NCBI RefSeq assembly: GCF_016860545.1
Contig: NZ_BNEB01000002.1
Span: 124,001-188,000 of the forward strand
Direction: 5' to 3'
Source: Streptomyces asoensis
Lineage (GTDB): Bacteria; Actinomycetota; Actinomycetes; Streptomycetales; Streptomycetaceae
Length of the DNA stretch: 64,000 nucleotides
In this document: positions 12,448 to 41,456 of the stretch, piece by piece
Numbering within the stretch: position 1 is the first letter of the stretch
Layout: every line of letters starts with the position of its first letter
Program-made: the position numbers and the translations under genes
Notes under the pieces: model-generated
Told to the model about the DNA's origin: nothing
Seen by the model: the letters and a program-made list of their open reading frames with translations, nothing else
Database searches by the model: none

Positions 12448-12493
12448 ACCTGACGCGCAATTAATTCGTTCGCTCCGTCCGCGGCCGCCCTCC

Positions 12494-12499
12494 TAAAGT
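12494..12499 (+). promoter_or_regulatory. Putative -10 box for the Y RNA cluster
   Basis: TAAAGT ends 6 nt before 12506, the first base of the terminal helix of the first Y RNA, which is the right distance for a transcription start there. No convincing -35 is visible at 17 bp. Confidence 0.4.
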
Positions 12500-12505
12500 G
12501 ATGAA

Positions 12506-12643
12506 CGTCCAGGTGCGAAGGCAGGACCTACTTCCACTGATAATGGGGCGGCCGCGGGTTCGAGTCCCGCCACCGGTACTACGCGCCGGTGTAGCTCAGG
12601 GGCAGAGCACCTTGTCGGTTCCGCCGGCTTCGATCTCTGGACG
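12506..12643 (+). ncRNA. Y RNA 1 with permuted tRNA-like module
   Basis: The terminal helix is CGTCCAG (12506-12512) with CTGGACG (12637-12643). The Ro-type internal region has GGTGCGAA on the 5' side and CGATCT on the 3' side. The upper helix is GGC-A-GGACC (12520-12528) with GGTTCCGCC (12617-12625). It carries a tRNA-like module in permuted order: T-arm GCGGG-TTCGAGT-CCCGC (12554-12570), closed acceptor CACCGG/CCGGTG (12571-12591), D-arm GCTC-AGGGGCA-GAGC (12594-12608). The 5' GGUGCGAAGG resembles GGUCCGAAGG of vertebrate Y RNA. It lies upstream of the Ro-like TROVE gene. Bacterial Y RNAs with tRNA mimicry are known (Salmonella YrlA); this assignment is by structure and neighbourhood. Confidence 0.8.
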
Positions 12644-12659
12644 CCACAATTTCACAGCA

Positions 12660-12732
12660 CCTCCCGGTGCGCGGGCTGCGGCTACTTCTCTCCAAAAGAA
12701 ATCCGGGCCGCCGCCGACTTGATCTCGGGAGG
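12660..12732 (+). ncRNA. Y RNA 2, minimal form without tRNA-like module
   Basis: The terminal helix is CCTCCCG (12660-12666) with CGGGAGG (12726-12732). The same Ro-type motif follows: GGTGCG (12666-12671) opposite CTTGATCT (12718-12725), close to the CUUGAC of metazoan Y RNAs. The upper helix is GGC-T-GCGGC (12674-12682) with GCCGCCGCC (12707-12715). Only a 24-nt pyrimidine/A-rich loop caps it where the neighbours hold the tRNA-like module. At about 73 nt it may be only the Ro-binding handle, or a degenerate copy, although its helices are fully paired. Confidence 0.72.
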
Positions 12733-12746
12733 CGCAGCATGTGGTG

Positions 12747-12886
12747 GGTGTCCGGTGCGCAGGCAGCGGTTACTTCATTGGATCGGACGGTCGCGGGTTC
12801 GAGTCCCGTCACCGGCTCAGGGCCGGTGTAGCTCAGTGGGCAGAGCATCTGGCTGAGTCCGTCGCCGACCCCTGATCTCGGGCACC
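12747..12886 (+). ncRNA. Y RNA 3 with permuted tRNA-like module
   Basis: The terminal helix is GGTGTCCG (12747-12754) with CGGGCACC (12879-12886), one U-G wobble. The Ro-type GGTGCG and GATCT are conserved. The upper helix is GGC-A-GCGG (12762-12769) with CCGTCGCC (12859-12866), keeping the same internal A-C mismatch as Y RNA 1. tRNA-like module: T-arm GCGGG-TTCGAGT-CCCGT (12793-12809), acceptor CACCGGC/GCCGGTG closed by TCAGG (12810-12828), D-arm GCTC-AGTGGGCA-GAGC (12831-12846). No anticodon arm exists; the Ro stem takes its place. A T-rich stretch follows. The TROVE start is 64 bp downstream. Confidence 0.8.
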
Positions 12887-12950
12887 TTCCTTTTGCTGCG
12901 CCTTTCCCCGACAGACGAAACAATGAACACCGAATTCGGGGGAATTCACC

Positions 12951-14540
12951 ATGGCGCGCTTCAATATCCGTGCCCGTAAACCGCGTCCCGTCTCGCCCGT
13001 GACCACCACGGGCCGGGTGCTCCGTACCCATCAGGGCGGCCGCGGTCACGAGCGGGACACCCGCTCCGAACTCTTCCTGCTGGCGATCGCGAACTTCGTC
13101 TCGCAGCAGACCTTCTACGAGTCCGGCGCCGACCGCGACGACCGCTTCACCCGGCTGGTCCGCGAACTCGCCGTCAGCGACCCCACCTGGACGGCCGGCC
13201 TGCTCGGCTGGCTGCGTGGCGAGGGCAACCTGCGCACCGCCGCGATCGTGGGCGCCGCCGAGTACGTGCACGCGCGGCTCGCGGTGGGAGCCACCGGCGG
13301 TCCTTCGAACCGGCAGGTCGTGGACTCCGTGCTGCGGCGTCCCGACGAGCCGGGCGAGCTGCTCGCGTACTGGACGGCGACCCACGGCCGGGCCCTGCCC
13401 AAGCCGGTCAAGCGCGGTGTCGCCGACGCCGTACGGCGGCTCTACAGCGGCAAGTCGCTGCTGAAGTACGACACAGCGTCCAAGGGCTACCGCTTCGGCG
13501 ACGTCCTCAACCTGGTGCACGCCTCGCCGGACCCGGCGAAGCCGTGGCAGGGGGACCTGTTCCGGTACGCCCTCGACCGCCGGCACCACCCGGACACCGC
13601 CGAGGTGCCCAGGTCGCTGCCCGTCCTCGTCGCCCACCGCGACCTGATGGCGCTGCGGCCCGCGAAGCGGCGCAAGGTGGTCACCGGAGCCGGCGGCACG
13701 CGGCGGCTGGCCGAGGCCGGCATGACCTGGGAGGCCCTGGCGGGCTGGCTCCAGGGGCCGATGGACAGGGCGGCCTGGGAGGCGGTCATCCCGACGATGG
13801 GGGTGATGGCCCTGACGCGCAACCTGCGCAACTTCGACGAGGCCGGGGTCTGTGACGAGGTCGCGGCGCAGGTGGCGGCGAGGATCAGCGACCCGGCCGA
13901 GGTCGCCCGTTCGCGTCAGTTCCCGTTCCGCTACCTCGCCGCGTACCGGCACGCGCCCTCGCTGCGCTGGGCGTATCCGCTGGAGCAGGCGCTCGGCCAC
14001 TCGCTGGCCGCGGTGCCCGCACTGCCCGGCCGGACGCTGGTGCTCGTCGACCGCTCGGGCTCGATGTTCTACGCCCGGCTGTCGGACCGCTCCGAGCTCA
14101 ACCGGGCCGACGCGGCGGCGATCTTCGGTACGGCGCTCGCGGTGCGGGCGGCGGACGCGGACCTCGTCGAGTTCGGCACCGTCAGCAAGGCGATCGATTT
14201 CCGTAAGGGGGAGGCCATGGTGAAGATTCTGGAGCGTTTCGGTGACCTCGGAGGCACGGACACCACCGAGGCCGTACGCCGGCACTACCGCGGCCACGAC
14301 CGGGTGCTGATCGTCACCGACGAGCAGTTCACCGCGAGCCGGCACGGCGACCCGACCGACCAGGTCCCGGCGGACGTGCCGGTGTACACCTGGAACCTGG
14401 CCGGCTACCGCGCCGGTCACGGCCCGTCGGGGAAGGCGAACCGGCACACCTTCGGCGGGCTCTCGGACGCGGCCTTCCGGATGGTGCCGCTGCTGGAGGC
14501 CGCGGACGACACGCGGTGGCCGTGGGCGGCCGCGGCCTGA
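12951..14540 (+). CDS. rsr: TROVE-domain RNA-binding protein (Ro60 orthologue)
   Basis: 529 residues. The N-terminal TROVE module is a ring of helical repeats (RDTRSELFLLAIANFVSQQTFYESGADRDDRF, ending about residue 345). A C-terminal vWA-like domain has the MIDAS triad D367-x-S369-x-S371 in LVLVDRSGSM. Ro proteins bind misfolded RNAs through the central hole and Y RNAs on the outer surface. In Deinococcus and Salmonella the Y RNA tethers Ro to PNPase for RNA decay. Three Y-like RNAs lie immediately upstream on the same strand, so this is a complete Ro/Y module. RBS GGGGGA; no RtcB/RtcA repair genes are adjacent. Confidence 0.93.
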   Translation: MARFNIRARKPRPVSPVTTTGRVLRTHQGGRGHERDTRSELFLLAIANFVSQQTFYESGADRDDRFTRLVRELAVSDPTWTAGLLGWLRGEGNLRTAAIVGAAEYVHARLAVGATGGPSNRQVVDSVLRRPDEPGELLAYWTATHGRALPKPVKRGVADAVRRLYSGKSLLKYDTASKGYRFGDVLNLVHASPDPAKPWQGDLFRYALDRRHHPDTAEVPRSLPVLVAHRDLMALRPAKRRKVVTGAGGTRRLAEAGMTWEALAGWLQGPMDRAAWEAVIPTMGVMALTRNLRNFDEAGVCDEVAAQVAARISDPAEVARSRQFPFRYLAAYRHAPSLRWAYPLEQALGHSLAAVPALPGRTLVLVDRSGSMFYARLSDRSELNRADAAAIFGTALAVRAADADLVEFGTVSKAIDFRKGEAMVKILERFGDLGGTDTTEAVRRHYRGHDRVLIVTDEQFTASRHGDPTDQVPADVPVYTWNLAGYRAGHGPSGKANRHTFGGLSDAAFRMVPLLEAADDTRWPWAAAA

Positions 14541-40655: not shown

Positions 40656-41456
40656 GTGTCCCTTACCCGCAGACAGGTCACGTCCGCGGCGCTCGCCGCC
40701 GTCCCGCTGGGCGCGGCGGCGGCCGGGCCCGCCCGGGCCGGGACCGCCCGCCGGCCTCGCACGCTCTTCGTCGCCGGTGACTCCACCGCCGCCCAGAAGT
40801 ACTCCGACGCCGCCCCCGAGACCGGGTGGGGGATGGCGCTCCCGTTCTTCCTGCGCAAGGACCGGCCGGTCGCCAACCACGCGGTCAACGGGCGCAGTTC
40901 GAAGAGCTTCATCGACGAAGGCCGGCTGGACGCGGTCCTCGCCGCGATCCGGCCGGGGGACTTCCTGCTGGTCCAGTTCGCGCACAACGACGAGAAGACC
41001 ACCGATCCGACCCGGTACACCGAGCCCTGGACGACGTACCAGGACCACCTGCGCCAGTACATCGCCGGCGCCCGTGCCAAGGGCGCGCGTCCCGTGCTCG
41101 CCACGCCCGTCGAGCGGCGCAGGTTCGACGCCGCGGGCACCGCCCTGCCCACGCACGGGGAGTACCCGGCCGCCATGCGCGCACTGGCCGTGCAGGAGCG
41201 GGTGGCGCTGCTCGACATCCAGGCGCTGTCGCTCGCGCTGTGGCAGGAACTGGGCGTCGAGGAGACGAAGACCTACTTCAACTGGACCGACACCGAACAG
41301 GACAACACGCACTTCAACCCGCCGGGCGCGATCGCCGTGGCGCGGCTCGTCGTGCGGGAACTGCTGCGCACGCGGGTGCTCGCGCCGCGTGACGTCGTGC
41401 GGCTGCACGACGAGATCCCCACGTCCTGGATCACCTGGCCCCCACCGCTCGCCTAG
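40656..41456 (+). CDS. Rhamnogalacturonan acetylesterase (CE12, SGNH)
   Basis: 266 residues from GTG 40656 (RBS GAGAGG; a GTG at 40647 would sit on the RBS). The Tat-like signal SLTRRQVTSAALAAVPLG is cut near GPARA. SGNH blocks: FVAGDSTAAQKY (nucleophile Ser), HAVNGRSSKSF, LVQFAHNDEK, and DNTHFNPPGA with the Asp-x-x-His pair. It removes acetyl groups from rhamnogalacturonan outside the cell, opening pectin to the lyases encoded next. Confidence 0.9.
   Translation: MSLTRRQVTSAALAAVPLGAAAAGPARAGTARRPRTLFVAGDSTAAQKYSDAAPETGWGMALPFFLRKDRPVANHAVNGRSSKSFIDEGRLDAVLAAIRPGDFLLVQFAHNDEKTTDPTRYTEPWTTYQDHLRQYIAGARAKGARPVLATPVERRRFDAAGTALPTHGEYPAAMRALAVQERVALLDIQALSLALWQELGVEETKTYFNWTDTEQDNTHFNPPGAIAVARLVVRELLRTRVLAPRDVVRLHDEIPTSWITWPPPLA

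Follow-up and report, generated by a model that had tools for sequence, protein, structure and literature searches.

It was asked whether three tandem repeated units directly upstream of a Ro-like gene in Streptomyces asoensis are genuine Y RNAs and, if so, what such an array might do. The window, i.e. the whole stretch of DNA that was analyzed, comprises 64,000 nucleotides of contig NZ_BNEB01000002.1 (positions 124,001 to 188,000), and all coordinates are given relative to its first base unless stated otherwise.

Three Y RNA units precede the Ro gene

The array of three RNA units is flanked by genes for a PhoX-type phosphatase and a TROVE-domain protein. R1 denotes the covariance model of unit 1.

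12506..12643, + strand: Y1, Y RNA combining a Ro-binding stem with a complete permuted tRNA module (covariation; RF02553, E 5.4e-6; R1, 168 bits, a score obtained by construction since Y1 is a row of R1)
12660..12732, + strand: Y2, short Y RNA made up of a Ro-binding stem and an upper helix, without tRNA module (covariation)
12747..12886, + strand: Y3, Y RNA with permuted tRNA module, here of the class-I (GTAGCTCA) type (R1, 97 bits, E 3.9e-19; covariation; RF02553, E 1.1e-6)
12951..14540, + strand: TROVE-domain protein (Ro60/Rsr orthologue), 529 amino acids (PF05731, E 3.7e-12, above the cut-off)

The TROVE gene at 12951 is the only one in the genome. Compared with the PDB, its product matched the TROVE proteins 9l5y/9kop (E 3e-27), and VDRSGSM in its C-terminal part, read by eye in the translation, corresponds to DxSxS, the motif of a vWFA-type metal site.

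An earlier note, made from the sequence alone, had described Y-like RNAs of 138, 73 and 140 nt at these coordinates, and both lengths and positions were confirmed. The three end helices that it named are present, namely CGTCCAG/CTGGACG (12506; 12637-12643), CCTCCCG/CGGGAGG (12660; 12726-12732) and GGTGTCCG/CGGGCACC (12747; 12879-12886), as are, in all three units, GGTGCG on the 5' side, GATCT on the 3' side and an upper helix GGC-N / C-GCC. The start codon of the Ro-like gene at 12951 lies 64 nt after Y3, as the note had claimed. The sequence of the basal helix differs among Y1, Y2 and Y3, and the upper helix carries one fixed mismatch. A motif common to the units, YACTTC, is located 3' of the upper helix and was absent from the note.

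Covariation supports the structures

Single-sequence folding gave energies close to those of shuffled sequences (z -1.6, -0.9 and -1.0), which alone is unconvincing. Aligned units were examined for pairs changed on both sides, which amounted to 15 of 35 in unit 1 (43 sequences), 4 of 15 in unit 2, 18 of 36 in the class-I type of unit 3 and 13 of 41 in its Leu type. For each of these four alignments (A1-A4) the covariation score was reached by none of 500 shuffles and was far above that of slid controls, in which, with the partner shifted by one column, pairing fell from 96-98% to 34-49%. Among 28 units from other actinomycete families, aligned by fitting to the model, which favors the model's structure, 29 of 35 pairs were changed on both sides and 96.7% of cells were paired (0/500 shuffles); the covariation alignments A5 and A6 are fitted to the model.

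Covariation is decisive here: the three units are real RNA structures. Together with the PF05731 match it bears out the claim of Y-like RNAs with compensatory stem changes upstream of a Ro60 gene. Conservation of the stems in relatives had been named beforehand as a point on which this claim could be refuted, and the stems covary both in Streptomyces and in other actinomycete families.

Y1 and Y3 contain a permuted tRNA module

Y1 and Y3 carry GCGGGTTCGAGTCCCG (T arm), a closed acceptor-like stem and then TAGCTCA...AGAGC (D arm), and mimic tRNA at the level of both sequence and secondary structure. Judged by these elements, they can be assigned to the YrlA-type Y RNAs, in which the effector is a circularly permuted tRNA consisting of T arm, closed acceptor stem and D arm. 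While the reading of the units as Y RNAs stood, the modules of units 1 and 3 had been overlooked before.

12554..12570, + strand: T arm of Y1, GCGGG-TTCGAGT-CCCGC (sequence, Rfam match, covariation)
12571..12591, + strand: acceptor-like stem of Y1, with the permutation joint in its closing loop (sequence, covariation)
12594..12608, + strand: D arm of Y1, GCTC...GAGC (sequence, covariation)
12793..12809, + strand: T arm of Y3 (sequence, covariation)
12810..12828, + strand: closed acceptor-like stem of Y3 (sequence, covariation)
12831..12846, + strand: D arm of Y3 (sequence, covariation)

At the gathering threshold, Rfam gave no match in the whole window, so that a permissive search was needed. 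In this search RF02553 (YrlA) matched units 1 and 3 with the E-values listed above and scores of 37.6 and 35.2 bits for the pair. As these scores lie below the RF02553 gathering score of 69 bits, the units are not filed as members of this family, only as the same kind of RNA. ARAGORN, which looks for a cloverleaf in normal 5'-to-3' order, found no tRNA at 12506-12886, where the modules are permuted. Elsewhere in the window (41017-41112) it called a tRNA-Ala(ggc) of 96 nt that has no Rfam support at the gathering score and is probably false.

The junction between tandem tRNA-Asn genes (G000:C1:547087-547237) scored 42.5 bits as YrlA and also matched the middle of R1; it is a source of false YrlA/R1 matches. 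Such tRNA junctions match R1 at positions 32-110 only. As tandem tRNA-Asn genes score in both models, it is plausible that the permuted module derived from tandem tRNAs.

An anticodon-like arm completes the cloverleaf of Y1

12534..12546, + strand: anticodon-like hairpin of Y1, CCA-CUGAUAA-UGG (conserved stem and loop, covariation, RNAalifold)

This hairpin precedes the T arm, and GG at 12547-12548 pairs with CC after the D arm. Its stem was CCA/TGG in 97 units, CGA/TCG in 6 and CCG/CGG in 2, the pairs being kept in 100% with compensatory changes. The loop of 7 nt follows the pattern C-U-N-N-U-A/C-A and reads CT-NN-T-A-A in nearly all units (CTCATAA in 38, CTGATAA in 34, CTCTTAA in 10, plus rarer variants). 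Separate loop statistics from a crude hairpin finder were noisy for units other than Y1 and are not used here. Constant C32, U33 and A38 with variable positions 34-35 or 34-36 match an anticodon loop.

The two bases 3' of the hairpin co-vary with two bases after the D arm (L125, L162; also in other families). The anticodon-like arm of Y1 is thereby a five-pair stem in which the chain is broken after pair two, which yields a complete permuted cloverleaf; both ends at the break would be led into the Y stem. RNAalifold predicted the hairpin without its being imposed, but extended it locally, and covariation with the D half favors the long-range pairs over this extension. The anticodon-like arm was also found in other actinomycete families. 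Y3 modules have no anticodon hairpin.

The tRNA identity of unit 3 changes between close relatives

To assign identities, each module was compared, half by half, with the tRNAs of its own genome. Best scores averaged 37, against a mean of 17 and a maximum of 22.5 for shuffled sequences. Unit 3 was Arg(ACG)-like in some species (scores 50-51, margins 14-17) and Leu-like in others, where it is of class II with a long covarying variable arm and a Leu-like D arm; rarely, it was fMet- or Glu/Gln-like. Leu and class-I types were about equally common (50 and 52, respectively). An exact isotype for the S. asoensis modules was considered and set aside, as their His-like scores (41-42.5, margin about 5) are not firm, whereas Arg(ACG)- and Leu-like assignments are clearer.

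Switches between Leu and class-I type numbered at least 11 on the Ro tree and at least 13 on the tree of upstream DNA, counted on strongly supported branches only and on quick trees. The identity of unit 3 differs even between close relatives (Arg/His-like versus Leu). Loci L012 and L019 barely differ in units 1 and 2, whereas unit 3 has had its tRNA part exchanged inside conserved Ro stems; the divergence continues downstream into Ro, which suggests recombination. Repeated fresh capture of tRNA genes was considered as an account of these switches, but the Leu modules are alike and the divergence between L012 and L019 reaches Ro. Exchange by recombination appears at least as likely as fresh capture.

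Unit 2 can shrink to its basal motif

In at least 13 relatives, including L008, Y2 has shrunk to a hairpin of 35-38 nt that consists of GGTGCG and GATCTC with few bases between them, which suggests that the basal motif alone is kept. Where Y1 is absent, a promoter-like element is found in front of Y2.

The units are linked to Ro in Streptomyces

Among 166 Streptomyces TROVE loci, a set that counts some genomes twice, strict rules gave all three units in 88 and two units in most of the remainder (41 with units 2 and 3, 10 with units 1 and 3). Unit 2 was a hairpin remnant in six of the latter ten and diverged in three. No units were found in 10 of the 166 loci, mostly belonging to a clade of diverged TROVE paralogues; this second paralogue (about 63-70% identical; L149-L153, L156-L159), present in some Streptomyces, had no detectable Y RNAs upstream. 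Multi-unit arrays also occur in other actinomycete families. Three units in a row, which the earlier note had called unusual for an actinomycete, are thus the usual layout in Streptomyces.

A search of actinobacterial genomes with a covariance model, proposed in the same note, was run with R1 over 297 actinomycete genomes. Full-length matches at E<1e-10 were obtained in 33 of the 297, and all 33 are among the 37 TROVE-positive genomes, so that strong matches are exclusive to genomes with TROVE. The p-value of this association (9e-40) assumes independent genomes, an assumption that overstates their independence since they are related.

Signals for expression of the array

12461..12466, + strand: TTAATT, conserved element preceding the array (27 nt upstream of the -10-like hexamer in the majority of Streptomyces loci that showed both)
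12494..12499, + strand: -10-like hexamer TAAAGT, in relatives TAGAGT/TACAGT (fixed distance from unit 1 in 76 loci)
12932..12947, + strand: GAATTCGGGGGAATTC, Shine-Dalgarno-like palindrome, potential hairpin with a G-rich loop (GAATTCGGGGGAATTC or a form one G longer in 122 of 166 Streptomyces loci)

Seven bases on from TAAAGT lies the first base of the unit-1 helix, and we infer a transcription start near this base (12506). Neither a sigma-70 consensus promoter nor a terminator was found at the array. The short spacers leave little room for separate promoters, hence one transcript is probably processed to RNAs of about 138, 73 and 140 nt.

An orphan Y RNA lies far from the array

A further full-length R1 match (104.6 bits, E 5.3e-21) was detected at G000:C2:1877205-1877345 (L301:7206-7346), 1.74 Mb from the array in a genome without a second TROVE gene. 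Its neighbors, both read from open reading frames, are an MFS transporter and a chitinase-like gene. Relatives of this orphan at E<1e-24 were found in 15 other Streptomyces of 199, and the 12 such genomes contained in the collected Streptomyces set all carry TROVE (12/12). The Ro stem of the orphan covaries, with GC, CG, UA and UG at one pair. The anticodon-like stem of the family is CTC/GAG or CGC/GCG, and the loop CTCTCAA of several members is that of tRNA-Glu(CUC), accompanied by a D arm of the tRNA-Glu type.

A probable Ro RNP operon and its rivals

We consider it probable that the locus is a Ro RNP operon with Ro-docking Y RNAs, tRNA-module adaptors in Y1 and Y3 and an adaptor-free Y2. 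From one promoter, three tandem Y RNAs and then the Ro60/Rsr gene would be expressed, as a bacterial Ro RNP operon. The basal helix with GGUGCG / GAUCU in each Y RNA is the likely Ro-binding site, and each Y RNA would dock on the Ro ring. The tRNA module of Y1 and Y3 would act as adaptor to PNPase and/or tRNA-binding enzymes, and Y2 would occupy or gate Ro without an adaptor. Transcription, processing, Ro binding, PNPase tethering and this division of labor are what we infer for the locus; tethering would follow the Deinococcus Ro-Y-PNPase example, and partners other than PNPase are possible.

A serious rival, in view of how identities switch and of the Ro genes found in actinophage tRNA clusters, is that the tRNA modules are baits or decoys that draw tRNA-acting nucleases, toxins or modifying enzymes to Ro, with changing attackers selecting tRNA variety. 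The frequent switching of unit 3 between close relatives on both flanking-gene trees, the module swap in the otherwise nearly identical arrays of L012 and L019, the anticodon-like loop kept in Y1 and the orphan Y RNA, and the actinophages that carry Ro and Y-like RNAs among tRNA genes are consistent with this, and Salmonella YrlA has been suggested to inhibit an anticodon nuclease competitively (PMC7790460). However, frequent switching can also arise by recombination without selection, the tRNA nuclease did not cut Salmonella YrlA (PMC7790460), and the anticodon hairpin is missing from Y3 modules. We regard a decoy role as rather unlikely.

Alternatively, Ro might bind to the Y structures within the leader of its own mRNA and so regulate how much Ro is made or how the transcript is processed. 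The 64 nt between the end of Y3 and the start of Ro, the short spacers and the conserved Shine-Dalgarno-like palindrome would agree with such a cis-acting leader, but action in trans is expected of an orphan Y RNA far from any Ro gene, and transcription predicted to begin with the first base of the Y1 helix points to discrete RNAs. This role, which is compatible with a Ro RNP operon and does not exclude it, appears improbable. That degenerate tRNA genes or tRNA-derived repeats came to lie upstream of Ro by chance, as the scores of the tandem tRNA-Asn junction in both models might suggest, is refuted by the covariation of the outer helices and is scarcely credible, since compensatory changes affect Ro-binding helices as well as tRNA parts, full-length R1 matches are exclusive to TROVE genomes and tRNA junctions cover a limited part of R1.

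Beyond the Ro RNP operon at this locus, a broader reading can be offered tentatively, although we rate it as doubtful: actinomycete Y RNAs would be complete permuted tRNA mimics with anticodon-like arms, arrays would exchange tRNA identity between strains, such RNAs would also occur away from Ro, and through them the Ro ring would offer varied tRNA shapes to enzymes acting on tRNA, either as adaptors or, in conflicts with toxins and phages, as decoys. If the effector is a replaceable tRNA copy with an anticodon-like arm, nature would have provided ready-made experiments on what Ro RNPs recognize: the swaps between Leu and Arg/His types in nearly identical arrays, the module-free Y2 and the orphan Glu-type RNA.

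Comparison with known Ro and Y RNA systems

Vertebrate Y RNAs share a short conserved Ro-binding motif, GGUNCG, and a terminal stem; they are not known to contain a tRNA-like module. The likeness of the units to them comes from a short motif, and the permuted tRNA modules of units 1 and 3 make bacterial YrlA RNAs the closer relatives. The Y RNAs of Salmonella and other bacteria, YrlA among them, were reportedly described by Chen et al. in 2014 and, with a structure, by Wang et al. in 2018; structure 6CU1 is that of the YrlA tRNA mimic.

YrlA RNAs are tRNA mimics bound by Rsr, for which D, T and acceptor arms only are given as tRNA features (PMC8394870). Rsr is bound by the stem; the tRNA-like domain is where PNPase binds and where DusA and TruB introduce modifications (PMC8394870). 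Like YrlA (RF02553), the Streptomyces units adjoin Ro/Rsr and have an end-pairing stem and a permuted module with T arm, closed acceptor stem and D arm. Of the features typical for this kind of RNA, the array adjoins a TROVE gene, has the end stem with GGUGCG/GAUCU and contains the tRNA-like module in units 1 and 3, though not in unit 2. In contrast to YrlA, Y1 and the orphan add an anticodon-like arm, scores stay below the Rfam cut-off, some forms of Y3 imitate a class-II tRNA, tRNA-Leu, including its long variable arm, and three units, including one without module, form an array.

The Deinococcus radiodurans Ro-Y RNA-PNPase complex (RYPER) is similar in that Ro and Y RNA are encoded together and a PNPase gene is present in the genome, in S. 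asoensis elsewhere than at the array. It differs in that Streptomyces has several Y RNAs of different kinds per Ro, and PNPase tethering is here proposed by analogy. With the Salmonella RNA repair operon rsr-yrlBA-rtcBA the locus shares more than one Y RNA beside Ro, but it lacks rtcB, RtcB being encoded elsewhere in the genome.

Bacterial Y RNAs that mimic tRNA are an already published kind. Relative to the literature compared, the founding Y RNA papers aside, what appears to be new is the complete cloverleaf, together with the switching of identity, the shrunken unit 2 and the orphan. Y RNAs of this family were known to imitate a tRNA in part, and apparently they can imitate almost the whole molecule.

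Ro and Y-like RNAs in actinophages

Large clusters of tRNA genes in Streptomyces and Arthrobacter phages (L359-L361, L363) include a gene for a Ro-like protein, next to which weaker Y RNA matches were found. In the Gordonia phage VanLee, an annotated tRNA-Arg(UCU) (L362:2704-2775) lies inside a 105-bit R1 match (L362:2700-2842) beside the phage Ro gene, and the tRNA call falls on the anticodon-like hairpin. The annotated tRNA is probably a misannotated Y RNA, and tRNA finders may take Y RNAs for tRNAs, as seemingly happened in this phage.
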